A stretch of DNA of 41,985 nt, from NCBI RefSeq assembly GCF_000331535.1, contig NZ_AMZN01000022.1, positions 1 to 41,985 of the forward strand, written 5' to 3'. Of this stretch, positions 3,567 to 22,854 are shown one piece after another (positions within the stretch are counted from its first letter, which is position 1; each line of letters opens with the position of its first letter). The stretch comes from Fulvivirga imtechensis AK7. Lineage in GTDB: Bacteria; Bacteroidota; Bacteroidia; Cytophagales; Cyclobacteriaceae. Both the position numbers and the translations under genes were made by a program. Under the pieces are notes generated by a model that saw only the letters and a list, made by a program, of their open reading frames with translations, had not been told where the DNA came from and ran no database searches.

Positions 3567-6383
3567 ATGCAAGATACTACCACCAACCCTGAAAAAATTC
3601 TCGATACTCTTGACCCTAAGGAGCACATCATCATTAAGCGGGCCCGGGTCAATAATCTAAAAAATTTAAGCGTTGCCATACCCAGAAACAAGCTGGTAGT
3701 GATCACCGGTTTGTCAGGCTCCGGAAAATCTTCTTTAGCTTTCGATACCCTTTTTGCCGAGGGGCAGCGCATGTATGTTGAAAGCCTCAGCTCATATGCC
3801 CGCCAGTTTTTAGGCCGGATGGAAAAGCCGGAGGTAGACTACATACGTGGTGTCTCTCCGGCCATAGCTATTGAGCAAAAGGTAAATACAAGAAACCCCC
3901 GGTCAACGGTCGGTACTACTACCGAAATATATGACTACCTGAAATTGCTTTATGCCAGGATTGGTGTTACATACTCGCCCATTAGCGGGCAAAGGGTGTC
4001 AAAGAACTCTGTTTCTGATGTTGTAAAATATATCAATAGTCATGAGCAAGGCGTCAAAGTAATGGTATCCTGTCCGCTTAAGCTGCATAAGGAACGCTCT
4101 ATGGAGCAAGAGCTTAACATTCTGTTGAGCAAGGGCTACACCAGGGTGTTAAACAATGGCGAGGTTGCCTTCATTGAAGATCTGTTGGAGAACCTGGCGC
4201 AGTTGGGTAAAAAGCCGGAGTTGGAGATCCTGATAGACCGCGCTGTGATCAACCCTGATGATGAAGATACGCAATTCCGCCTGGCGGACTCCGTGCAGAC
4301 AGCATACTTTGAAGGTATAGGCGACTGCTACGTTTACATTGTTGATAAAGGCAAAAAAGAGTTTTCAGACCGCTTCGAGGCAGATGGCATGCGTTTTCAT
4401 GAGCCTAATGTTAATTTTTTCAGCTTCAACAACCCTTATGGCGCCTGCAGAACATGCGAGGGCTTTGGAAAGGTACTGGGCATTGATCCCGACCTGGTGA
4501 TCCCCGATAAAAGCTTGTCGGTCTACGAAGGTGCAGTGGCTCCCTGGCGAAGCGAAACGATGAAAAAGTGGGTTGAGCCTTTGCTAAAGAACGGAATACG
4601 TTTCGACTTTCCGATCCATCGGCCATACAATGAGCTTACGGAGCAGGAAAAGGAACTGCTGTGGACGGGCAATGATTACTTCAAAGGACTGCATAAGTTC
4701 TTTAAGCATTTGGAATCCAAAACTCATAAGATACAATATAGAGTACTGCTGTCCAGATATAGGGGCCGCACTACCTGCCCTGACTGCCGGGGTACCCGCC
4801 TGCGTAAGGATGCTTCTTATGTGAAGATCAATGAAAGATCCATAACAGACCTTGTGCTGATGCCGATCACTCGGGTAATAGAATTTTTTGACGGACTGAA
4901 ACTTTCCGAGCACGACCAGGCTATTGCGAGAAGGCTGCTGAAGGAGATTAATAACCGGCTTTCTTACATCGACCGAGTCGGGTTAGGATACCTCACCCTT
5001 AACAGGATGACTGCCACCCTGTCCGGGGGTGAGTTTCAGCGCATCAAGCTGGCGACCTCCCTTGGCAGTGCATTGGTGGGTTCGATGTATATACTTGACG
5101 AGCCGAGCATCGGCCTGCATCCGCGAGATACCAAAAAGCTTGTCGGGGTGCTTAAATCTCTAAGGGATATGGGTAACACCGTGATAGTGGTGGAGCACGA
5201 GGAAGAAGTGATGCGGGCGGCCGACCAGATCATCGACATAGGACCGGATGCCGGTATTTATGGAGGAAAGTTAGTTTTCCAGGGCAACCTGTCGGACCTG
5301 AACGGTTCGGATTCTTATACGGCAAAATATCTTTTGGGTAAAGAGCAAATATATGTTCCTACTCAGAGGAGATCGTGGAAAGATTATATCAAAATATCAG
5401 GGGCGATAGAAAACAACCTCAAAAATATTGAGGTAAAATTCCCACTTGAGGCGCTTACGGTCATTACCGGGGTGAGTGGCTCCGGTAAATCTACGCTGGT
5501 GAAGAAGATCCTTTACCCCGCGGTGGGGAAAATACTGGGCACAGTATCAGAGGCTACGGGGAAGTTTGATAAGATGGAAGGCGACTATGAAAAGATCACA
5601 CAAATCGAATTTGTTGATCAAAACCCTATCGGCAAGTCGTCCAGGTCGAACCCGGTTACTTATGTAAAAGCCTATGATGCTATCCGGCAGCTTTTTTCAG
5701 ACCAGCCATTAGCCAGGCAAAGGGGCTACAAGCCTTCACACTTCTCCTTCAATGTAGAAGGTGGCCGCTGCGAGACGTGTCAGGGTGAAGGTGTGGTAAA
5801 GATAGAAATGCAGTTTATGGCCGATATTTTCCTGACATGTGAAAGTTGTAAAGGCAAACGGTTTAAGCAGGAGATATTGGATATCGAATACGAAGGCAAA
5901 AATATAGCCGATGTGCTGGCGCTCACGGTTGAGGAAAGCCTTGAATTTTTTGCAGATAAAAACCCTATCCTCAACAAGCTACAGCCGCTGTTCGATGTGG
6001 GGTTGGGTTATATCGGTCTTGGTCAGTCGTCCAATTCCCTCAGTGGTGGCGAGGCGCAGCGGGTAAAGCTGGCGTCTTTCCTGGGAAAGAACTCTCGTGA
6101 CAGCAGAGATCACATCCTGTTCATTTTCGATGAACCGACAACAGGCTTGCATTTTCACGACATCACCAAACTGCTGTACTCCATACAAGCACTGGTAGAC
6201 CAGGGACACAGCGTCATTATCATAGAGCATAACATGGAAGTGATCAAATCCGCTGACTGGATCATTGACCTGGGCCCGGAAGGTGGTGAGGGTGGTGGAA
6301 AGGTCTGCTTTGCCGGTGTACCAGAGGACATGGCGAAGTTGAAGGACAATTATACCGCTGAATTTTTGAGGGAGAAGTTGTAA
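3567..6383 (+). CDS. uvrA: Excinuclease ABC subunit A
   Basis: Damage-recognition ATPase of nucleotide excision repair, working with UvrB and UvrC. It has 938 residues from the ATG at 3567; a TTG 12 nt upstream is in frame but overlaps the promoter box. Walker A motifs are GLSGSGKSS at 48-56 and GVSGSGKST in the second half. ABC signatures are [12 protein letters not shown] and [12 protein letters not shown]. The second zinc module is intact (CETC ... CESC within the GGRCETC region). The first is reduced: C294/C297 (GACRTC) are present, but the upstream CPxC pair is replaced by EADGMR at 271-276. I recall this as a trait of Bacteroidota UvrA proteins. Neither uvrB nor uvrC is in the window. 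Confidence 0.97.
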
Positions 6384-14797: not shown

Positions 14798-15976
14798 ATG
14801 GATATTGAATTGATCAGAAATAATACTCCGGGGGTTAACTCGGTAACACATTTTAATAATGCCGGGGCTTCGCTGGTGAGCCAGCAGGTGCTGGAAACCC
14901 AGCTCGGTTATCTGCAACAAGAGGCCCACCTGGGAGGCTACGAAACAGCCGCGCTGTTTCACGACCAGCAAGAAGACTTTTACCGGCAGGTAGCAAAGCT
15001 GATCAATGCGTCTCCTGAAGAAATAGCCTACACCGAAAGCGCTACTGTTTCGTGGCAGCGGGCATTTTTTTCTATACCGTTTAAAAAAGGGGACACTATT
15101 TTAACAGCAAAGGCTGAATATGCCAGTAATTATATCTCATTTCTGTATCTGAAGGAAGAAAAGGGGGTCAACATCAGGATCATACCTTCCAATAAACCCG
15201 GAGAGATCGATCTGGGCGAACTTGAGAGGAGTATTGATGATAGCGTCCGGCTGATCTCGCTTACACATATGCCCACTAATGGAGGACTGGTGAACCCTGC
15301 TGAGGAAGTTGGCGCTATTGCGAAGAAGCATGGAATACTATTCTTACTTGATGCCTGTCAGTCGGTAGGGCAGTATCCGGTAGATGTTAACAGGATCGGG
15401 TGCCATTTTTTATCAGCAACAGGTCGCAAGTTTTTAAGAGGCCCACGTGGTACAGGGTTTTTATATGTAAAAAGGGAACTATTAAAGCACTTAAGGCCTA
15501 TCAACGTTGATCTTCACTCCGCCAGTTGGACCGAAATCGAGAGCTATTCGTTGCGGGATGATGCCAGAATGTTCGAAACCTGGGAATCGAACATAGCAGC
15601 CAAACTGGGGCTTGCTGAGGCGGTGAAGCAAGCCAATACTCTCGGTGTGGACCTGATATGGGAAAGGGTTACATTTCTGGCAAATGACCTCAGAGAAAAG
15701 CTAATGAGTTTGCACGGGGTTGAAATACGGGATTTGGGTAAAATTAAGAGTGGAATTGTTACCTTTACTACCTTTACCCCTGCTCATGCGGTAAAGGAAG
15801 CGCTAAAAAAGCGAGGTTTTAATACCACCGTTGCGGTAATGGGGAGCACTTTACTGGATATGTCTGACAGGAATTTGGCAGAAGTGGTTAGGGCCTCGGT
15901 TCACTATTATAATACGGAGGAAGAAATAGACAAATTCATAATTGCACTAAAGGATATTTTAGAAACCAGTTCATGA
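14798..15976 (+). CDS. Class V aminotransferase-fold PLP enzyme
   Basis: A 392-residue fold-type I PLP enzyme of the class V group (cysteine desulfurase/isopenicillin-N-epimerase-like). The ATG at 14798 gives MDIELIRNNTPGVNSVTHFN, a normal start; the TTG at 14756 is unlikely. Seen: HFNNAGASL near the N-terminus, ESATVSWQRAF in the phosphate-binding loop, Asp185 and Gln188 in LLDACQSVGQYPVDV, and Lys211 in SATGRKFLRGPRGTG as the Schiff-base lysine. No desulfurase catalytic-cysteine loop is evident near the C-terminus, so a lyase, epimerase or aminotransferase role is more likely than sulfur transfer. The stop overlaps the start of the PagL-like gene (ATGA). Confidence 0.87.
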   Translation: MDIELIRNNTPGVNSVTHFNNAGASLVSQQVLETQLGYLQQEAHLGGYETAALFHDQQEDFYRQVAKLINASPEEIAYTESATVSWQRAFFSIPFKKGDTILTAKAEYASNYISFLYLKEEKGVNIRIIPSNKPGEIDLGELERSIDDSVRLISLTHMPTNGGLVNPAEEVGAIAKKHGILFLLDACQSVGQYPVDVNRIGCHFLSATGRKFLRGPRGTGFLYVKRELLKHLRPINVDLHSASWTEIESYSLRDDARMFETWESNIAAKLGLAEAVKQANTLGVDLIWERVTFLANDLREKLMSLHGVEIRDLGKIKSGIVTFTTFTPAHAVKEALKKRGFNTTVAVMGSTLLDMSDRNLAEVVRASVHYYNTEEEIDKFIIALKDILETSS

Positions 15977-17088
15977 GATTCATTTTTACGGCATTGTTGT
16001 TGGTCTTTTTGCATGTTAATTCCTTCGTATCAGGACAGGGAAAACCCTCGTGGTCATATGGTATAAATCCGTATTATGGTGGTGTGCTGAGGTATAAAGA
16101 GGATATGCCCAAGCTTGACATGACCGGCCTGCATGGCATTGAGCTTTATACAGTAAAAATGACCAACGGCAAGCATCGCTGGGAGAAGTTGTACAATTAT
16201 CCACATATTGGATTTGCCGCGTCTTATTTTAACTATGGTGTACCTGATGAGCTGGGAGAGGTTTACTCACTGGCCAGCTACATGGATGTGACCGCCAATA
16301 ACAGGAAAAAATTTCAATGGCGATTGAATATTGGTACCGGTTTCGTTTATTCTACCAAACGCTTTGATGCCCAGACCAACCCTGATAATAAGGCCATCAG
16401 CAGCAGGATAAGTTATGTGCTGAGAGGGACGATCCATCATGAGATACAGTTAAGCGAACAATACTATTTCAACCTTAATTTGGCCTTCAGGCATTACTCC
16501 AACGGAAAGCTGAATATCCCTAACAATGGCATGAATTTCCCGGTTGTAGGGGTTGGATTGCGATATGTCCCCAACCCGCAAAAAATTGACTTCAAAAAAG
16601 ACACCACAAGTGCCTTTAACAAGAAGCTACTAATAAATTTGATGGGTGGCACGGCCTGGAGAGAAGTGCTTAGAGAGGATTACAAACAGAAAGCATATAG
16701 TGCAAGTCTTTATTTAAGCAAGCAAATCACCAGGTACAATACACTGCTACTTGGGGTGGATGGGTTCCTTTATGATAAGGAATCAGTACGCAAAGCCACA
16801 CAGGTATACAATACTCAAAATACTGCCGTTCCTGAAGATCAGTTGGTTGATGATGATGGAAAGCAAATGGCTGTTACCATTGGTACGGAGCTTCTTTTTG
16901 GAAAACTATCCGTAATACTGCAGGGCGGAGCCTATGTGTATAAGCCACAGATCTATTATGAAGCGACCTGGTATCAGCGATACGGCTTCAAGTATCAGGT
17001 CACTCCTTATCTTTTTCCACAGGTGACCCTCAAATCGCACAGTCGCACGGCAGATATGGTGGAGTTTGGTTTGGGTGTATCGTTTTAA
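15973..17088 (+). CDS. PagL-like lipid A deacylase (acyloxyacyl hydrolase family)
   Basis: An outer-membrane beta-barrel protein of 371 residues with a signal peptide (cleavage near VSGQ, residue 21). The segment RHYSNGKLNIPNNGMNF at 173-189 holds the HxS motif (His174, Ser176) that forms the catalytic core of PagL, and VVGVGLRYVP follows as the next strand. Alternating hydrophobic strands cover the rest. PagL removes the 3-O-acyl chain of lipid A. This protein is about twice the length of the classical enzyme and has an extra C-terminal half (about 205-371) that may add barrel strands. It overlaps the aminotransferase gene by 4 nt, so the two are translated together. Confidence 0.8.
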   Translation: MRFIFTALLLVFLHVNSFVSGQGKPSWSYGINPYYGGVLRYKEDMPKLDMTGLHGIELYTVKMTNGKHRWEKLYNYPHIGFAASYFNYGVPDELGEVYSLASYMDVTANNRKKFQWRLNIGTGFVYSTKRFDAQTNPDNKAISSRISYVLRGTIHHEIQLSEQYYFNLNLAFRHYSNGKLNIPNNGMNFPVVGVGLRYVPNPQKIDFKKDTTSAFNKKLLINLMGGTAWREVLREDYKQKAYSASLYLSKQITRYNTLLLGVDGFLYDKESVRKATQVYNTQNTAVPEDQLVDDDGKQMAVTIGTELLFGKLSVILQGGAYVYKPQIYYEATWYQRYGFKYQVTPYLFPQVTLKSHSRTADMVEFGLGVSF

Positions 17089-17097
17089 TAAACTGTT

Positions 17098-18438
17098 TTA
17101 AAATTCTAAATGAAAGGCTGTACCCTTACCGGGGTCTGATTGCACAGTGATGCTACCATTGTGGAGTTTCATGATCTGTCGGGCAAAGCTTAAGCCTATT
17201 CCGGTCCCTTTCTTCTTAGTAGTGTAAAACGGAATAAACACCCTGTCTATCAGCTCCTTGGGGATGCCCGGGCCATTATCTTCTATGGTTATGGCCACTT
17301 TTCTGGCTCCCGTTCGCCTGGCTGAAATGGAAATTTCCGGAGCTTCCTGGTCTTCCAGTACTTCTATGGCATTTTTTAGCAAATTTATCAGTACCTGTTC
17401 GAGCAATTCATGGTCAGCCCTTACTTTTAGTTCCTTACTCTTAAGGCCAAGGTTTAGCGTAATACCTGCCCGGTCAAGGTCTGGCCTTAATAGCAGGGTG
17501 AGCCTTTCTATCATCGCTGTGATATTGACATCACTGATCTTGAGCTCAGGCGTTTTGGCGAAATCCTTATACGCATGTACAAATCTGAGGAGTCCTTTGC
17601 TTCGGTTTTCAATGGTTTGCAGGCTGATGACTACATCGTGTTTATCTTCATCAGAGAGCGCTTCCAGGTCATCGACCTGCAGGATCTGGTTCACTGCTGT
17701 GCTCAGCGAGGCAATTGGGGTTACTGAATTCATGATCTCATGGGTAAGCACGCTGATGAGCTTTTGCCAGGCTTCCACTTCCTTCTGATCAAGCTCTATA
17801 TGAATGTTTTGCAAGAGCACAAGCCTGAAATTTTTTTCCTGCAGGATAAAATCCTTTACCTGAACGGATAACTGTACCATCTCATCTTTAATAAAAACCT
17901 TTATTACCTGCCGGTCTCCGGAAGGCAATTCGGTAATCACCCGGTACAATAGTGGGTCAATAGCCACCACATCATTGATATGCTTCAGGTAGGGCTTTTT
18001 TAAAAGGGTTTTGGCCGCAGGGTTCATCAGTTCAATATTTCCATCAACAGTAAAGCTGATGATCGACACGCCAATATTTTCGTTTAATGTCCGGAGGTAT
18101 TGATACTGCGACTCCTTTTCAATACTTATTTTCTGAAATTCCTCTATCACCTCGTTAAAGGCCTTGCTCAGCTCTGCCTGGTTGGCCCCCTTTCCCGTAC
18201 CTTTAAAAATATTGGTGAAGCCGCTTTGTTTGATTGACAGGAGGAAATGCGTAAGCTCGCTGTTCATTCTTTCTGCATAGTAAATAAGATTGATGACTGT
18301 TATCAGTAATAATATCGCAATAACCAGTGGGGTAAAAAACCACTCTGTGCTGACTAAAACGAATGCCAGCCCCAGTGTCAGCGCCATCATGAGCAACACA
18401 CGAATAAGGATGTTCAGTCTAAAATTTTTAAGGTTCAT
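17098..18438 (-). CDS. Sensor histidine kinase, NtrY-like, partner of the sigma-54 regulator
   Basis: A 446-residue membrane kinase. Two N-terminal helices (about 10-30 and 34-54) leave almost no periplasmic loop, so the signal is probably sensed in or under the membrane. A linker and a PAS domain (about 112-215) follow. The H box ISVLTHEIMNSVTPI has His233. The ATPase domain has LLKNAIEVL (N box), IEDNGPGIP (G1) and GTGIGLSFARQIM (G2). This box layout is typical of NtrY/NtrB-type partners of sigma-54 regulators. Its gene lies downstream of the regulator gene on the same strand, but 266 bp of repeat-bearing DNA separate them. Confidence 0.92.
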   Translation of the reverse strand: MNLKNFRLNILIRVLLMMALTLGLAFVLVSTEWFFTPLVIAILLLITVINLIYYAERMNSELTHFLLSIKQSGFTNIFKGTGKGANQAELSKAFNEVIEEFQKISIEKESQYQYLRTLNENIGVSIISFTVDGNIELMNPAAKTLLKKPYLKHINDVVAIDPLLYRVITELPSGDRQVIKVFIKDEMVQLSVQVKDFILQEKNFRLVLLQNIHIELDQKEVEAWQKLISVLTHEIMNSVTPIASLSTAVNQILQVDDLEALSDEDKHDVVISLQTIENRSKGLLRFVHAYKDFAKTPELKISDVNITAMIERLTLLLRPDLDRAGITLNLGLKSKELKVRADHELLEQVLINLLKNAIEVLEDQEAPEISISARRTGARKVAITIEDNGPGIPKELIDRVFIPFYTTKKKGTGIGLSFARQIMKLHNGSITVQSDPGKGTAFHLEF

Positions 18439-18704: not shown

Positions 18705-20081
18705 TCAATACCTAATTCCATACTTATCCATTTTTCGGTAGATGGTAGTTCTTCCCAGTCCCAATTCCTTCGCTGCTTTGCTGATATTACCCTTGTTTTT
18801 AACTATGGCTTTTTCAATGGTCATTTTTTCTACTTCGTCCATATTTACACTGTCAGGAGGTCCGCTGGTCTGGACCTTTTCATTAAGCAAAAAATCCGTT
18901 GGTTGTAATATGCTATCATCAGCCATAATTACAGCTCGTTCGATCGCATGTTGTAGTTCCCGAATATTGCCAGGCCATGAAAATGAGGAGAGGAAGTCCA
19001 ATGCTTTTTTGCTGATCGTCAGATTATTTTTGCGGTACTTCTGTGAATATACTTGTAAAAAATGTTCTGCTAGCAACGGGATATCCTCCTCTCGCTCACT
19101 GAGCCTCGGCAGATGTACTTCCACCGTATTGATCCGGTACAAAAGATCCTCCCGGAATTTTCCTGCAGCCACCAATTGATTAAGATTGCTATTGGTAGCG
19201 GCTATAATTCTGCAATCAACAGGTATAGACTCGTTTCCACCTACACGTACAATTTCCTTATGCTGTATAGCAGTTAATAGCTTCGCTTGCATGGGAAGGG
19301 AAAGATTGCCGATTTCATCTAAAAACAATGTACCCTGATCAGCTAATTCAAATCGCCCGGTGCGGTCTTCCCGTGCGTCCGTGAACGCTCCCTTTTTATG
19401 TCCGAAAAGCTCCGACTCAAACAAATTTTCGGAAATAGATCCGAGATCCACTTTGATGAAAACCTTATCATTGCGCGGTGATTTATTATGTAGCGCCCGG
19501 GCTACCATTTCCTTGCCGGTGCCATTATCCCCTAAAATAAGAATATTGGCCTCAGTGCCTGCCACCTTGTCTATAGTGACAAATATTTTTCTCATCGCTT
19601 CCGAGCGCCCGATAATCTCTGCTTCCTCACCTCCCAAAAGCTGGGTCAACCCACTATTTTTTGACTTCAACAGCTCCACTTCCTGCCGGGACTGATGGTG
19701 ATTGTAAGCAGCATATACAGTCGCCTGAAGCTTTTCATTCTCCCATGGCTTGACCACAAAGTCTGCCGCTCCTATCTTCATGGCTTCTACAGCCAGTTTG
19801 ATATCGCCATAGGCGGTCATCATAATTACCTGCTGGCCCGGATTTTTGTTGATGACATTTTTTAACCAGAAAAGTCCCTCTTTACCGCTGGTGGCGCCAG
19901 TGGTATAGTTCATATCCAGGAGAATAACGTCATAATGGTTATGATTAAGCAAATAATTGATCTGTTCAGGACTGCTTTCTACAGTGATATTCGAAAAATG
20001 AGGTTTGAGTACTATCCTGGCCGTATGCAAAACATCGGGATCATCATCAATGACAAGAATATGAGCTGGGACTTTTTTCAT
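18705..20081 (-). CDS. Sigma-54-dependent response regulator, NtrC family
   Basis: A 458-residue activator from the ATG at 20081; the TTG/GTG-type extension upstream adds 20 unlikely residues. The receiver domain (about 5-125) has IDDDPD and phospho-acceptor Asp56. The AAA+ domain has Walker A GDNGTGKE (184-191), Walker B TLFLDEIGN (251-259) and the sigma-54 contact loop KKGAFTDA, where the canonical GAFTGA has Asp instead of the second Gly. The C-terminus is a Fis-type helix-turn-helix (NISKAAKELGLGRTTIYRKM). The kinase at 17098-18438 is its likely partner. The promoter region of the divergent permease contains matching activator sites. Confidence 0.95.
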   Translation of the reverse strand: MKKVPAHILVIDDDPDVLHTARIVLKPHFSNITVESSPEQINYLLNHNHYDVILLDMNYTTGATSGKEGLFWLKNVINKNPGQQVIMMTAYGDIKLAVEAMKIGAADFVVKPWENEKLQATVYAAYNHHQSRQEVELLKSKNSGLTQLLGGEEAEIIGRSEAMRKIFVTIDKVAGTEANILILGDNGTGKEMVARALHNKSPRNDKVFIKVDLGSISENLFESELFGHKKGAFTDAREDRTGRFELADQGTLFLDEIGNLSLPMQAKLLTAIQHKEIVRVGGNESIPVDCRIIAATNSNLNQLVAAGKFREDLLYRINTVEVHLPRLSEREEDIPLLAEHFLQVYSQKYRKNNLTISKKALDFLSSFSWPGNIRELQHAIERAVIMADDSILQPTDFLLNEKVQTSGPPDSVNMDEVEKMTIEKAIVKNKGNISKAAKELGLGRTTIYRKMDKYGIRY

Positions 20082-20135
20082 ATATTTAACGGTCTTGTTC
20101 CTACTAAGTGCTTCTAAGAAAAACTCACAATTTAT

Positions 20136-20238
20136 CGTCATCGGTAACGAAGTGCGGCAATCCCCCTTCTTTAGCGTGCATTAAGAAGGGGTCGCTTCGA
20201 TTCCTCCCCGTGGCAAGCCCGGGACAGGCGCGATGACG
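20136..20238. repeat. Inverted-repeat intergenic element
   Basis: Terminal CGTCATCG (20136-20143) pairs with CGATGACG (20231-20238). An inner perfect 9-bp stem, CCCCTTCTT (20163-20171) with AAGAAGGGG (20183-20191), has an 11-nt loop. The right half contains, on the minus strand, GCCTGTCCCG..CTTGCC...CGGGGAGG, also present at 41897-41922 on the plus strand, so two members of one dispersed family lie in this window. It fills most of the gap between the sigma-54 regulator and its presumed target promoter. Confidence 0.75.
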
Positions 20239-20279
20239 GCAAGAGCTTTCTTATAGACACTGATTATAAAGTACAGTAA

Positions 20280-20296
20280 TGTTTCAGTATGAAACA
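20280..20296. promoter_or_regulatory. Upstream activator site 1 for the permease promoter
   Basis: The inverted repeat TGTTTC-N5-GAAACA is 17 bp long. It has the same architecture as the second site 23 bp away (centre to centre), about two helical turns, as expected for dimers of an NtrC-type activator on one face of the DNA. Its centre is about 120 bp upstream of the predicted start site. Confidence 0.66.
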
Positions 20297-20302
20297 AATA
20301 AT

Positions 20303-20319
20303 TGTTCCTTATTGGAACA
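20303..20319. promoter_or_regulatory. Upstream activator site 2 for the permease promoter
   Basis: The inverted repeat TGTTCC-N5-GGAACA, a perfect dyad, differs from site 1 by one paired position (TGTTYC-N5-GRAACA as joint consensus). Its centre is about 98 bp upstream of the predicted transcription start. Confidence 0.68.
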
Positions 20320-20363
20320 TACGGAGTATCAACTCTGATAATGTTCACTCATAAAACACTGAT

Positions 20364-20379
20364 AATCAATATATTGATT
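20364..20379. promoter_or_regulatory. Palindromic IHF-consensus site between activator sites and promoter
   Basis: AATCAATATATTGATT is a perfect 16-bp palindrome and matches the enterobacterial IHF consensus WATCAANNNNTTR on both strands. It lies between the activator sites and the -24 element, where a DNA bend is needed in NtrC-type promoters. Bacteroidota have HU/IHF-family proteins, but whether they share this consensus is not known to me. Confidence 0.5.
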
Positions 20380-20383
20380 TTAA

Positions 20384-20399
20384 TGGTACAGTTGTTGGC
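20384..20399 (+). promoter_or_regulatory. Sigma-54 -24/-12 promoter of the FtsX-like permease
   Basis: TGGTAC-N5-TTGG fits the sigma-54 consensus TGGCAC-N5-TTGC, with GG and the -12 G at the right 11-bp distance; C-to-T at -22 and the last base are the deviations. A start near 20409 gives a leader of about 22 nt before ATG 20431. Upstream dyads and the adjacent sigma-54 activator gene support it. Confidence 0.62.
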
Positions 20400-20430
20400 T
20401 TCTCATATTAAAAATTAACTATTTGTTAAG

Positions 20431-22854
20431 ATGTTCAAGAACTACCTAAAAATCGCTGTCCGAAATATACTGAAGAATAAGCTCTATTCTTTCATCAACA
20501 TCTTTGGGTTGGGTTTCGGCATTGCATGTGTGCTGCTTATTGTGCTTTATGTGCAGGATGAGCTTAGTTATGACAAGTTTCACGACCACGCAGGCGATAT
20601 CTACAGGGTTGCCTGGTTTAACGATAACCCACAAACACGTACGCCACATCCTATGGCCCAGGCCATGGTGCGTGATTTTCCTGAAGTAGCTGCTGCTACT
20701 ACCCTTTCTCCTATCTGGGGACCGGGTTTAACCAAACAAACCTTTTCGGTGCGAAACCTTGATAATGACATAACTTATGATGAAAGGAATGTGTTGGGGG
20801 TAGACAGCACATTCTTTGATGTATTTTCTTTCAGGCTGACAAAAGGCAACCAAAATGAGGTACTTCGAAATGTGGGGGGCCTCCTGTTATCTGAAAGTAC
20901 CGCCAGGAAATACTTTGGCGATGATGACCCAATTGGAAAGTCATTAGCCATCAATGATGATGAGACATTATTAATTGTGGAGGGTATTTTTGAAGATGTA
21001 CCGAAACATTCTCATTTTCATTTTGATATATTGGTTTCGTATGTTACACTTAAAGCTTCGAATCCCGGAAGTTCCTATTACTCATGGGCTGATTTCGGAC
21101 ATTTCAATTATATCAGGCTCCATGCAGGAAGTGATCCTCAAAAACTTGAAGACCAACTGGTAGATTGGGCATTAGGCTATGTAGAGGTGCCGGAGGAAGA
21201 GATAAGGGCGGCAATGGAGAATAATGACCATTTCAAATTACAACCTTTGACAGACATTCATTTAAAATCCAGGATCAGGTGGGAACTGGGGCATAACGGT
21301 AATATAGAATATATTTACATTATGACGGCAGCAGCCTTATTCATCCTGATCATAGCTTGCGTGAACTTCATGAACCTGACCACTGCCCGTTCCACAGAGC
21401 GATCAAAAGAAATAGGCATTAGGAAGTCTCTCGGAGCATACAAAAAGCAGGTATCATTACAATTCCTGGGAGAATCTTTACTTACGGCTTTTTTAGCCAT
21501 GGTGTTGGCAGGGTTTATGGCAGAAGTATCATTGCCATTCTTTAATGCAATAACTAATAAATCGCTGGATATTGAATACATCGAGAAGCCGCAACTAATG
21601 ATGACTTTACTGGGTTGCGGATTAGTCACCGGCTTGATAGCAGGCTTATATCCCGCATTGTTCCTTTCATCAATACATCCCGTAATAAGTCTGAAAGGAA
21701 TAGACAAGATAAAACCAAAAGGAGCTATGTTCAGAAAAGCACTGCTCATCTTTCAGTTTGTGATCTCAATGGTCCTCATTTGTGGTAGCATTGTGATCTA
21801 TGATCAGCTATACTTTATCCACAACAAAGATCTTGGCTTTGAAAAGGAAAGGGTAATAACCATACCTTTGAAGAATTATGAATTGCTTGGAAATTTTGAT
21901 GCACTGAAAAACGAATTGCTTACCGTTCCCGGGGTGCAATATGTGTCTGCGGCCTCTAATATTCCGGGGACTCAATACAACCAAAATCCGATTTTTTCCA
22001 CTGCTGACATTCAAAACAGGGTAGACGCCTCGGAGGTATTCGTTGACTATGATGTATTTAAAACGCTTGGCATTGAAATGATAGCCGGAAGAGGCTTTTC
22101 AGCGGCAGCAATTTATGACAGTGCCAATGTGTTTGTTATCAACGAAAAGGCGGCAAAAAATCTTGGTCTGGAAGAGCCGGTAGGAAGTGAAATTGTCTGG
22201 GAGTGGGATGTTGAACCTTCGCCTATGCGTGGAACGGTCATAGGAGTAGTAAAAGACTTTAATTATCAATCGTTGCACCAGCAGGTACAGCCACTGTTAT
22301 TCAAGCTACGCCCTTCCTACAATCACGTTTTGTTAAAGCTCAATTCGGATAACCCTGGAAGAAGTATGGAACAGGTAGAAATAGTCTGGAGAAAATTTGA
22401 AGACAGATTTGCATTCGATTATTCGATACTGTCAGATGACCTTTCAAATCAATATATTTCAGAGGAAAAGACAGCCCAGGTATTCAGTGGGTTTTCACTG
22501 GTAGCTGTTCTTATTGCATGTTTTGGGTTGTTCGGGTTGGCATCATTAAGCTTCAGCCAGCGGGCTAAAGAAGTAAGTATCAGGAAAGTACTCGGTGCCT
22601 CTACATCCAGAATACTGGCGCTATTGATCAGTGACTTCACCAGGTTGATAGCTTTAGCGATCATCATAGCCGTGCCATTGGCATGGCTACTTATGAGCCG
22701 GTGGTTGGAAAACTTCACTTTTAAGGTGCAGATCAACCCACTGAGTTTCCTGATAGCAGCAACCGCGCTAATACTTCTTGCCTGGATTACTGTTTCATAC
22801 TTAACCATAAAAGTTGCGAGCGCCAATCCTGTCGATAAACTGAAAGAGGAATAG
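20431..22854 (+). CDS. FtsX/MacB-like ABC transporter permease with two FtsX units
   Basis: An 807-residue inner-membrane protein made of two FtsX-type units. Each has a leading helix (18-41; about 430-452), a large periplasmic domain, and three helices (about 290-410; about 685-795). The N-terminus FKNYLKIAVRNILKNKLYSFIN and the end ANPVDKLKEE are typical of Bacteroidota MacB-like permeases. Members move lipoproteins, peptides or small molecules or transmit conformational signals across the envelope, powered by a separate ATPase. No ATP-binding protein is encoded here, so the partner must lie elsewhere. Regulation is predicted to be sigma-54 dependent through the divergent regulator. Confidence 0.9.
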   Translation: MFKNYLKIAVRNILKNKLYSFINIFGLGFGIACVLLIVLYVQDELSYDKFHDHAGDIYRVAWFNDNPQTRTPHPMAQAMVRDFPEVAAATTLSPIWGPGLTKQTFSVRNLDNDITYDERNVLGVDSTFFDVFSFRLTKGNQNEVLRNVGGLLLSESTARKYFGDDDPIGKSLAINDDETLLIVEGIFEDVPKHSHFHFDILVSYVTLKASNPGSSYYSWADFGHFNYIRLHAGSDPQKLEDQLVDWALGYVEVPEEEIRAAMENNDHFKLQPLTDIHLKSRIRWELGHNGNIEYIYIMTAAALFILIIACVNFMNLTTARSTERSKEIGIRKSLGAYKKQVSLQFLGESLLTAFLAMVLAGFMAEVSLPFFNAITNKSLDIEYIEKPQLMMTLLGCGLVTGLIAGLYPALFLSSIHPVISLKGIDKIKPKGAMFRKALLIFQFVISMVLICGSIVIYDQLYFIHNKDLGFEKERVITIPLKNYELLGNFDALKNELLTVPGVQYVSAASNIPGTQYNQNPIFSTADIQNRVDASEVFVDYDVFKTLGIEMIAGRGFSAAAIYDSANVFVINEKAAKNLGLEEPVGSEIVWEWDVEPSPMRGTVIGVVKDFNYQSLHQQVQPLLFKLRPSYNHVLLKLNSDNPGRSMEQVEIVWRKFEDRFAFDYSILSDDLSNQYISEEKTAQVFSGFSLVAVLIACFGLFGLASLSFSQRAKEVSIRKVLGASTSRILALLISDFTRLIALAIIIAVPLAWLLMSRWLENFTFKVQINPLSFLIAATALILLAWITVSYLTIKVASANPVDKLKEE

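Follow-up and report, generated by a model that had tools for sequence, protein, structure and literature searches.

The window, i.e., the whole analysed stretch of 41,985 nucleotides of Fulvivirga imtechensis AK7, contains the gene of a large permease and, divergent from it, those of an NtrC-type response regulator and a sensor kinase (Table 1); the sequence-only reading had proposed this arrangement of an FtsX-like permease facing a sigma-54 activator and its kinase, and the domain profiles agree with it. The regulator has the features of NtrC-type enhancer-binding proteins, including the domains, the GAFTxA loop (GAFTDA at residue 251), the Walker A and B motifs (GDNGTGKE at 204 and LFLDE at 272) and the phospho-acceptor Asp (LLDM at 74), and its recognition helix reads GRTTIYRK. 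Translation probably begins at the ATG at 20081 rather than at that at 20141, because the latter falls inside a repeat and the relatives for which an alignment start is given match the protein only from residue 17-26 or so. A crude hydropathy scan of the kinase, together with its sequence, revealed two hydrophobic stretches near the N-terminus, separated by a very short loop, and no periplasmic sensor domain. The genome contains one sigma-54 gene (a single PF04552 match, E 2.3e-54), and its MacB_PCD matches number 88, frequently as two in one gene.

The intergenic region was described in the sequence-only reading as carrying two 17-bp dyads 23 bp apart and a -24/-12 element, and all three can be read directly from the letters. 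In particular, the starts of the dyads are 23 bp apart and dyad 2 precedes the -24 element by 81 bp, start to start. An exact match to the IHF consensus WATCAANNNNTTR lies at 20364-20376, between the putative upstream activating sequences (UAS) and the promoter, and the core WWTCAR-N4-TTR, at the same positions, begins 20 nt upstream of the -24 T. The -24/-12 element follows the sigma-54 rule, with GG at -24, G[C/G] at -12 and 10 bp between them, the -12 reading GG and not GC. The probable promoter elements of the regulator gene are named according to the TAnnTTTG and -33 consensus.

Table 1. Genes and sequence elements at the locus, with positions in the window.
Feature	Position	Strand	Basis and remarks
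Sensor kinase, HATPase_c	17098-18438	-	domain profiles; H, N, G1 and G2 boxes present
NtrC-type response regulator: receiver, Sigma54_activat (AAA+), HTH_8	18705-20141	-	domain profiles; divergent from permease
Interspersed repeat	~20107-20262	no strand	seen by eye, ends approximate; between regulator start and operator
Probable -7-like box of regulator gene, TACTTTAT	20266-20273	-	two mismatches to TAnnTTTG
Dyad 1, TGTTTCAGTATGAAACA (TGTTTC-AGTAT-GAAACA), 17 bp	20280-20296	no strand	sequence letters and pattern search; distal operator half (putative UAS)
-33-like element TTTG of regulator gene	20295-20298	-	pairs with -7-like box, dyad 1 in between
Dyad 2, TGTTCCTTATTGGAACA (TGTTCC-TTATT-GGAACA), 17 bp	20303-20319	no strand	sequence letters and pattern search; proximal operator half
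IHF-like palindrome, AATCAATATATTGATT, 16 bp	20364-20379	no strand	own reverse complement; matches IHF consensus
Sigma-54-type -24/-12 element, TGGTACAGTTGTTGG (TGGTAC-N5-TTGG)	20384-20398	+	sequence letters
Predicted 5' leader of permease transcript	20409-20430	+	inferred, start set ~12 nt past -12 element
Permease, two MacB_PCD and two FtsX stretches, 807 aa	20431-22854	+	domain profiles; ATG at 20431; predicted target

On contig C56, a near copy of the interspersed repeat precedes the gene of a paralogous regulator. A repeat search of 20050-20450 reported none at the settings used, so the dyads rest on pattern searches and on the letters themselves. An RNA element was discarded, as Rfam gave no match in 19900-20600 at the gathering threshold, and so was a minus-strand terminator at dyad 2 (one terminator-like match, 0.3 expected), whose stem is dyad 2 itself, while dyad pairs recur elsewhere as pairs. 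E. coli-type sigma-70 promoters were found once against 1.2 expected and were likewise set aside.

In the 6.7-Mb genome TGTTYC-N5-GRAACA occurs at five places, against two for the reversed control, and four of the five make up two pairs, the second of which, with 21-bp spacing, is located on contig C14, around position 124350, upstream of an unlinked permease array. A Crp/Fnr-type gene adjoins this second pair; a lone dyad of the kind that arises by chance is found inside an ORF on contig C4. A genome-wide search for 23-bp pairs with up to three mismatches returned only the window and no further target (control 0). The IHF-like plus -24/-12 pattern alone is not specific, giving 50 genome-wide matches with up to two mismatches versus 18 for the reversed pattern; only the window fits it exactly, and seven sites, the C14 promoter among them, have one mismatch. 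Two promoters of F. imtechensis are predicted to answer to the regulator.

The conservation of the dyads upstream of orthologous permeases, which had been suggested as a check, is borne out in relatives, where the 23-bp spacing, the phased -24/-12 element and the IHF-like site in its place recur. Exact pairs proved rare in motif-only scans: 9/196 genomes of the family have them, at 11 places, and 5/396 at class level, at 7 additional places; F. imtechensis is counted in both, and the reversed control gave 0 each time. All 18 places head FtsX-containing transcription units; FtsX is directly downstream in 11/11 family places and in 6/7 class-level ones, the seventh heading an HlyD-ABC-FtsX operon. 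The genomes encoding regulators whose recognition helix reads GR[TS]T[IL]YRK (class A) added 11 new places, again with 0 reversed pairs, for a total of 29 distinct exact-pair places; 5 of the 14 such genomes searched lack an exact pair and have adjacent pairs with mismatches. A regulator gene adjoins the pair in 8 of the 11 family-scan places, and a regulator of the same helix class is encoded elsewhere in all five tested genomes that have a pair without an adjacent regulator (controls 3/10). In F. lutimaris (L179) the pair precedes a regulator with no adjoining transporter, and for this reason it was left out of the set of 37 places analysed below. Second copies (L056, L057, L169, L171, L172, L174, L175, L177, L180) were counted once, the N-masked L051 enters only the regulator-first survey and the motif-free palindrome search, and orientation at the first 26 places was that of the better box, which agrees with the permease direction. 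The loci are related and the counts do not represent independent events.

In 35 of the 37 places the distance from dyad 2 to the start of the best -24 box is 68-71 or 78-81 bp, and in one it is 91 bp; these distances proceed in steps of about one helical turn, and the tandem palindromic sites are phased to the promoter in 36/37. UAS of enhancer-binding proteins usually lie about 70-200 bp upstream. Among the first 33 places 32 are in phase, the window round 91 bp having been added only after L135 had been seen, versus a shuffle mean of 3.3 and a maximum of 9 in 500; L054 has its best box out of phase at 146. On well-supported branches the 70/80 shift takes no fewer than three changes (with L054 taken as 81). 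The resolution of the period is not sharp, the resultant being 0.74-0.78 across periods 9.5-11, and the 23-bp dyad spacing amounts to 2.2 helical turns and hence not to an integral number. In the -12 pair the first G, scored but not required by the search, is invariant (37/37).

The 16-bp palindrome fitting the IHF consensus that the sequence-only reading had pointed out is present in the window, and its core and position are conserved, but the palindromic form is not general and only the paralogue L020 comes close to it. What is kept across loci is WWTCAR-N4-TTR and its place, 18-21 nt before the -24 T in 28/37 places, with no match in 9/37; for the first 33 places the site is found in 25, against a shuffle mean of 0.74 and a maximum of 6 in 500. 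The 11 places found after the rules were noted behave alike, 10 lying within the two ranges of distance seen for the first 26 and 10 having the IHF-like site. It is possible, though we lean against it, that the regulator activates as proposed while this AT-rich element is UP-like or contacts the polymerase. The element is indeed locked to the -24 T while its distance to the dyads varies, the IHF sites usually described for such promoters lie farther from -24, a single HU/IHF-family gene, on contig C66, was found in the genome (the same gene by two models), and the element also precedes -24 boxes facing regulators of other helix classes in 4 of 8 loci examined. Against this, its conserved letters fit WATCAANNNNTTR, the consensus of E. 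coli IHF, with at most one mismatch at the conserved place in 18/37.

The pairs track one helix class of NtrC-type regulator, dyads 23 bp apart standing beside regulators of class A. When the survey started from the regulator, 24 of the 26 class-A loci, second copies (two) included, had a pair of dyads at this spacing with at most three mismatches each; of the remaining two, L051 is N-masked and the pair of L058 was seen in other searches. A motif-free palindrome search, which made no use of TGTTYC-N5-GRAACA, recovered the same half-sites upstream of the regulator class, GTTCC-N5 and TGTTC-N7 each in 10/24 non-redundant loci (maximum 3 in 20 shuffles), as well as a class-B operator candidate, CGGAC-N6-GTCCG, in 6/27 loci. 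The co-occurrence of pairs and regulator, whether side by side as in 8 of the 11 family-scan places or apart as in the five tested genomes, supports the putative binding of the regulator to the dyads. Class-A regulators with no pair nearby are L196, L203, L204 and L207, and L190 has a single dyad only. A strict recognition-helix code within class A was rejected, since GRST is uneven (variant dyads in L020 and L197, a single one in L190, none in L203 and L207) and two GRTT regulators, L196 and L204, likewise lack dyads nearby. The operator that had been proposed for Bacteroidota kinase/regulator/permease sets does recur in relatives; to judge from these comparisons, TGTTYC-N5-GRAACA is used by a single subclass within the regulator family.

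The dyads likely also overlap the promoter of the regulator gene, whose -7-like box is 22-24 nt from dyad 1 in 13/22 (shuffle mean 2.1, maximum 8, 500 shuffles), and they probably serve in its autorepression. This overlap, the distance of only 16-77 nt between dyads and start of the regulator match in 16/20 loci, the Crp/Fnr-type gene on C14 and L060, where one of two pairs fronts the regulator alone, would suit dyads that serve another dimeric regulator or only autoregulation, the sigma-54 box belonging to a different activator. Such an arrangement is improbable: in the other 4/20 loci, one of which is the window, 138-466 nt separate the dyads from the regulator start and yet they stay in position ahead of the permease, permease units are headed by a pair with a phased box even where the 3-kb locus gives no regulator match (L008, L011, L017, L131-L137, L170, L173, L176, L178), and the motif follows one helix class. 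An origin by chance or composition, as palindromes of an AT-rich intergenic region, is hardly credible given that, although lone dyads do arise by chance, reversed-pattern pair controls gave 0 and shuffles fell short of the observed values. The C14 target, the probable autorepression and the restriction to one subclass go beyond the sequence-only reading.

Taken as a whole, an enhancer-type sigma-54 promoter very probably drives the FtsX/MacB-type permease through the regulator acting on the paired dyads. The kinase would phosphorylate the response regulator, two dimers of which would occupy the dyads, whose centres lie some 98 and 121 bp ahead of the predicted start of transcription, and build the AAA+ ring; an HU/IHF-family protein directly upstream of the -24 element would bend the DNA, so that the ring could meet the sigma-54 polymerase on the right helix face and the promoter open. 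The same dyads, overlapping the probable primary promoter of the regulator, would probably hold it down, and the same regulator may drive the C14 permease array in trans through the 21-bp-spaced pair. What the comparison of sequences shows is that the sites are conserved, keep their spacing and phase, and go together with permeases and with a single helix class; binding, phosphorylation, bending, autorepression and the trans target are inferred.

The overall UAS/IHF/sigma-54 architecture is textbook: NtrC/NifA/CbrB-type promoters likewise have tandem palindromic UAS, an IHF-like site between, GG-N10-G[CG] and an AAA+ activator with HTH_8. In the passages of PMC6296734 on these sites, the CbrB sub-sites are TGTTAC/GTAACA and the NifA site is TGT-N10-ACA, so that the outer TGT...ACA is common to both and to the window dyads. 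The window differs in the half-site TGTTYC, the N5 inside, the 23 bp between dyads, the IHF-like site abutting the promoter, the FtsX/MacB-type permease targets and the host in Bacteroidota. According to passages of PMC12316311 (2025), Bacteroidia is one of the classes in which predicted sigma-54 promoters are enriched ahead of COG0577 permeases, and the link of sigma-54 with the FtsX-like family had gone unrecognised before; 'UAS' occurs 0 times in its main text, whose passages on COG0577 permeases name no activator, operator or phasing. No description of the TGTTYC-N5-GRAACA operator with a permease regulon was found in the literature searched, most subscription papers being outside its reach, and both appear undescribed so far.

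Bce-type modules use an OmpR-type regulator, whereas that of the window is an NtrC-type sigma-54 activator. In Firmicutes, BceRS-BceAB-type modules combine a kinase lacking an extracytoplasmic sensor domain with a large permease taking part in sensing (a passage of PMC7828314). The window kinase resembles theirs in its two membrane helices and very short loop, as seen by the crude hydropathy scan and the sequence; the permease is of the duplicated MacB/FtsX type, unlike the Bce permease, and sensing through it is hypothetical. It is not filed as a member of the ADOP family (TIGR03434), because its full-length match scores 313.4 bits, below the curated cut-off of 622.3.

To our knowledge, little is known of the control of MacB/FtsX-type permeases in Bacteroidota, and the literature searched on the control of such permeases yielded only the prediction of sigma-54 control. 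An activator and an operator would now be added to the recently predicted link between sigma-54 and FtsX-like permeases (passages of PMC12316311). The gain is a concrete operator, a regulator class and a prediction of the responding permeases, testable by helical phase, dyad changes and recognition-helix swaps. Tentatively, the locus may represent what Bce-type envelope modules are elsewhere, in a Bacteroidota form that is wired via sigma-54, in which a kinase devoid of a sensor domain would read the FtsX/MacB permease or the membrane state, and in which paralogous regulator subclasses, each with its own helix and operator (GRTT[IL]YRK with TGTTYC-N5-GRAACA; TRASLYRR with TGTCCG-type sites), would each induce their own set out of the many permeases of the genome from a common IHF-like/-24/-12 core.

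The gap between the regulator and permease genes of Fulvivirga imtechensis AK7 contains two dyads of the form TGTTYC-N5-GRAACA (17 bp), a palindrome fitting the IHF consensus and a -24/-12 element, in the order given by the sequence-only reading; the divergent NtrC-type activator and its kinase, which that reading placed opposite an FtsX-type permease, are recovered with their domain parts and catalytic boxes. The layout is that of the NtrC, NifA and CbrB promoters. The genome (6.7 Mb) has one sigma-54 gene and a single detected gene of the HU/IHF family, and the closest named relatives of the regulator protein are found in Fulvivirga kasyanovii (80%) and F. marina (79%). A PagL-like lipid A deacylase domain is encoded at 15973-17088 by a gene ending right beside the kinase gene.

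Features of the regulator-permease locus in the window
Feature	Position	Strand	Remarks
Kinase	17098-18438	minus	partner of the NtrC-type regulator; catalytic boxes present
NtrC-type regulator	18705-20141	minus	divergent from permease; receiver, AAA+ (GAFTDA) and HTH_8
Dyad 1	20280-20296		first element in the regulator-permease gap
Dyad 2	20303-20319		second element, after dyad 1
IHF-consensus palindrome	20364-20379		third element, between dyad 2 and -24/-12
-24/-12 element	20384-20398		last element before permease
MacB/FtsX-type permease	20431-22854	plus	

The dyad occurs at five places in the whole genome, four of which make two pairs, one in the window and the other on contig C14, where the spacing is 21 bp, TGGCAC-N5-TTGG lies 81 bp from the second dyad and an array of permeases follows. 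At least four permease genes are arrayed behind this second pair (locus L005, G000:C14:116000-132000), and a Crp/Fnr-type (cNMP_binding) gene is divergent from them. The search of related genomes suggested by the sequence-only reading has been run, and dyad pairs with -24 boxes recur upstream of permeases in family and class-level genomes. Of two gene-blind scans, each counting the window's genome, the family one gives exact pairs at 11 places in 9 of 196 genomes and the class-level one at 7 further places in 5 of 396, while the reversed pattern gives none in either; an FtsX gene is immediately downstream at 11/11 and 6/7 places respectively, and at the seventh class-level place (L131) the pair heads an HlyD-ABC-FtsX operon. 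A third search, covering 14 genomes from sixteen named loci and biased because these were chosen as carrying the regulator, gives exact pairs in nine genomes at 12 places, one repeating an earlier one, with FtsX next to the pair at 10 of the 11 new places. The exception (L179) precedes the Fulvivirga lutimaris regulator; a separate pair, about 4.8 kb off, belongs to the permease there. In the F. lutimaris locus L060 two genes separate regulator and permease, each of which has its own dyad pair (153-192 and 4931-4970), with a phased -24/-12 box at the permease pair only. Genes whose starts read by eye like HtpG-type chaperones are divergent from a permease with a dyad pair in L186 (7210-9126) and two genes from such a permease in L185 (3559-5409).

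The regulators with the recognition helix GR[TS]T[IL]YRK, here class A, to which the window's regulator belongs, comprise 26 loci drawn from the scans of the family and of the genome itself and from relatives of the regulator protein; L015 is incomplete and assigned via its second copy L057, and L056 duplicates L012. A motif-independent palindrome search ranks GTTCC-N5-GGAAC and TGTTC-N7-GAACA highest, each in 10 of the 24 non-redundant loci against at most 3 in any of 20 shuffles, and regulators with the helix TR[AST][SA]LYRR have a different palindrome, CGGAC-N6-GTCCG, in 6/27 loci. Dyads exactly 23 bp apart, with at most three mismatches each, are present in 24/26 class A loci; of the remaining two, L051 reads N at that stretch and the pair of L058 was seen in other searches. 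In the same-genome paralogue L020, whose helix is GRSTLYRK, the dyads are variants with unchanged spacing. All five pair genomes lacking an adjacent regulator (G025, G389, G522, G196 and G472) encode at least one regulator with a class A helix (E up to 1e-120), as do 3/10 control genomes without exact pairs, where the helix of L224 is unread in a genome already scored as positive. Among these three controls, one has a one-mismatch pair with a box at 71 before a start that looks permease-like by eye, a second shows a weak four-mismatch pair, and in the third no pair was found. TRASLYRR regulators in Algoriphagus (L063, L064, L066, L067, L069-L077) and in L065 are divergent, by eye, to an FKBP-type isomerase-like gene.

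The best -24 box, sought without position filter over 180 bases past dyad 2, begins 68-71 bp from the start of dyad 2 at 9 and 78-81 bp at 16 of the first 26 places scored; the sole exception, L054, has its best box at 146 and a three-mismatch box at 81. Ten of the 11 later places fall within the same windows and L135 is at 91, one turn further, so that 36/37 are in phase once a third window is added for it. Among the first 33 places 32 are in phase, versus a shuffle mean of 3.3 (maximum 9 in 500), with a poorly resolved period that fits 9.5 to 11 about equally. In a tree built from 25 regulators (22 belong to class A; L054 is scored as 81), the state of roughly 70 or 80 changes at least three times on well-supported branches, as between the window (81) and F. 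marina (68). Pairs spaced by 21 bp occur at five places, with boxes at 80-81 and no regulator match in the 3-kb locus. Among the 20 distinct loci whose permease starts within 700 bp, dyad 1 is 128-188 bp upstream of that start in 18, all but L055 and L085. It lies 16-77 nt from the start of the regulator match in 16/20, the distance being 138-466 in four, window included. In the window an interspersed repeat (about 20107-20262) sits on the regulator side of the dyads; the regulator ORF's ATG at 20141 falls within it, and near copies precede two paralogous regulators, the L023 upstream region included.

Between dyad 2 and the box, WATCAANNNNTTR is found on one strand or the other, with one mismatch allowed, at 17/26 places (shuffle average 4.5; 0/100 reached 17). 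The letters truly common to the places are WWTCAR-N4-TTR, beginning 18-21 nt upstream of the -24 T, a form fixed before the later places were known and a window fixed during analysis of the first 33; with at most one mismatch it is in place at 25/33 versus a shuffle mean of 0.74, and at 28/37 overall, 10/11 among the later places. Since its distance to the promoter is kept while the position of the dyads shifts by roughly one turn, the putative IHF site is, judged by position, part of the promoter core. The comparison with other helix classes covers eight loci, seven where FtsX is at most 1 kb from the regulator plus L019, which has an HlyD gene, and leaves out five with FtsX more than 2 kb away. 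In all eight a -24/-12 box is present with no more than two mismatches, and four have the IHF-like element in place.

The Bacteroidota -7 consensus is TAnnTTTG, and on the regulator strand its best match lies 22-24 nt past the dyad 1 start in 13/22 places (shuffle average 2.1, maximum 8 of 500). Dyad 1 would thus lie between the -33 and -7 elements of the regulator gene, from which we infer autorepression through dyad 1. In the most likely mechanism a signal would reach the kinase, the phosphorylated regulator would bind both dyads and form its AAA+ ring there, and a bend at the IHF-like site would bring the ring to the sigma-54 polymerase on the proper face of the helix, so that the permease gene is transcribed, while the regulator would limit its own synthesis.

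Sigma-54 control of FtsX-like permeases is predicted, and termed previously unrecognised, in PMC12316311, whose consulted portion names neither activator nor operator for them; in the main text of the Flavobacterium psychrophilum transcriptome paper (PMC9723704), as far as available, FtsX has 0 mentions. Literature searches gave no paper recognisably describing TGTTYC-N5-GRAACA as an operator, and the comparative support for this predicted system is strong.

By crude hydropathy the window kinase and its fully read class A relatives show two hydrophobic stretches at the N terminus, separated by a short loop, and no extracytoplasmic sensor domain, and several distant Bacteroidales relatives have one stretch only; the cue may therefore be the membrane state or the permease itself. 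Sensing through the permease would, speculatively, resemble Bce systems, in which the permease serves as cue for the kinase according to the available part of PMC7828314. Opposite the regulators of the wider family stand permeases alone, an HlyD-ABC-permease operon, as in L061, or HlyD and ABC genes, as in L047 of the window's genome; these neighbours point to a role in envelope stress or efflux.
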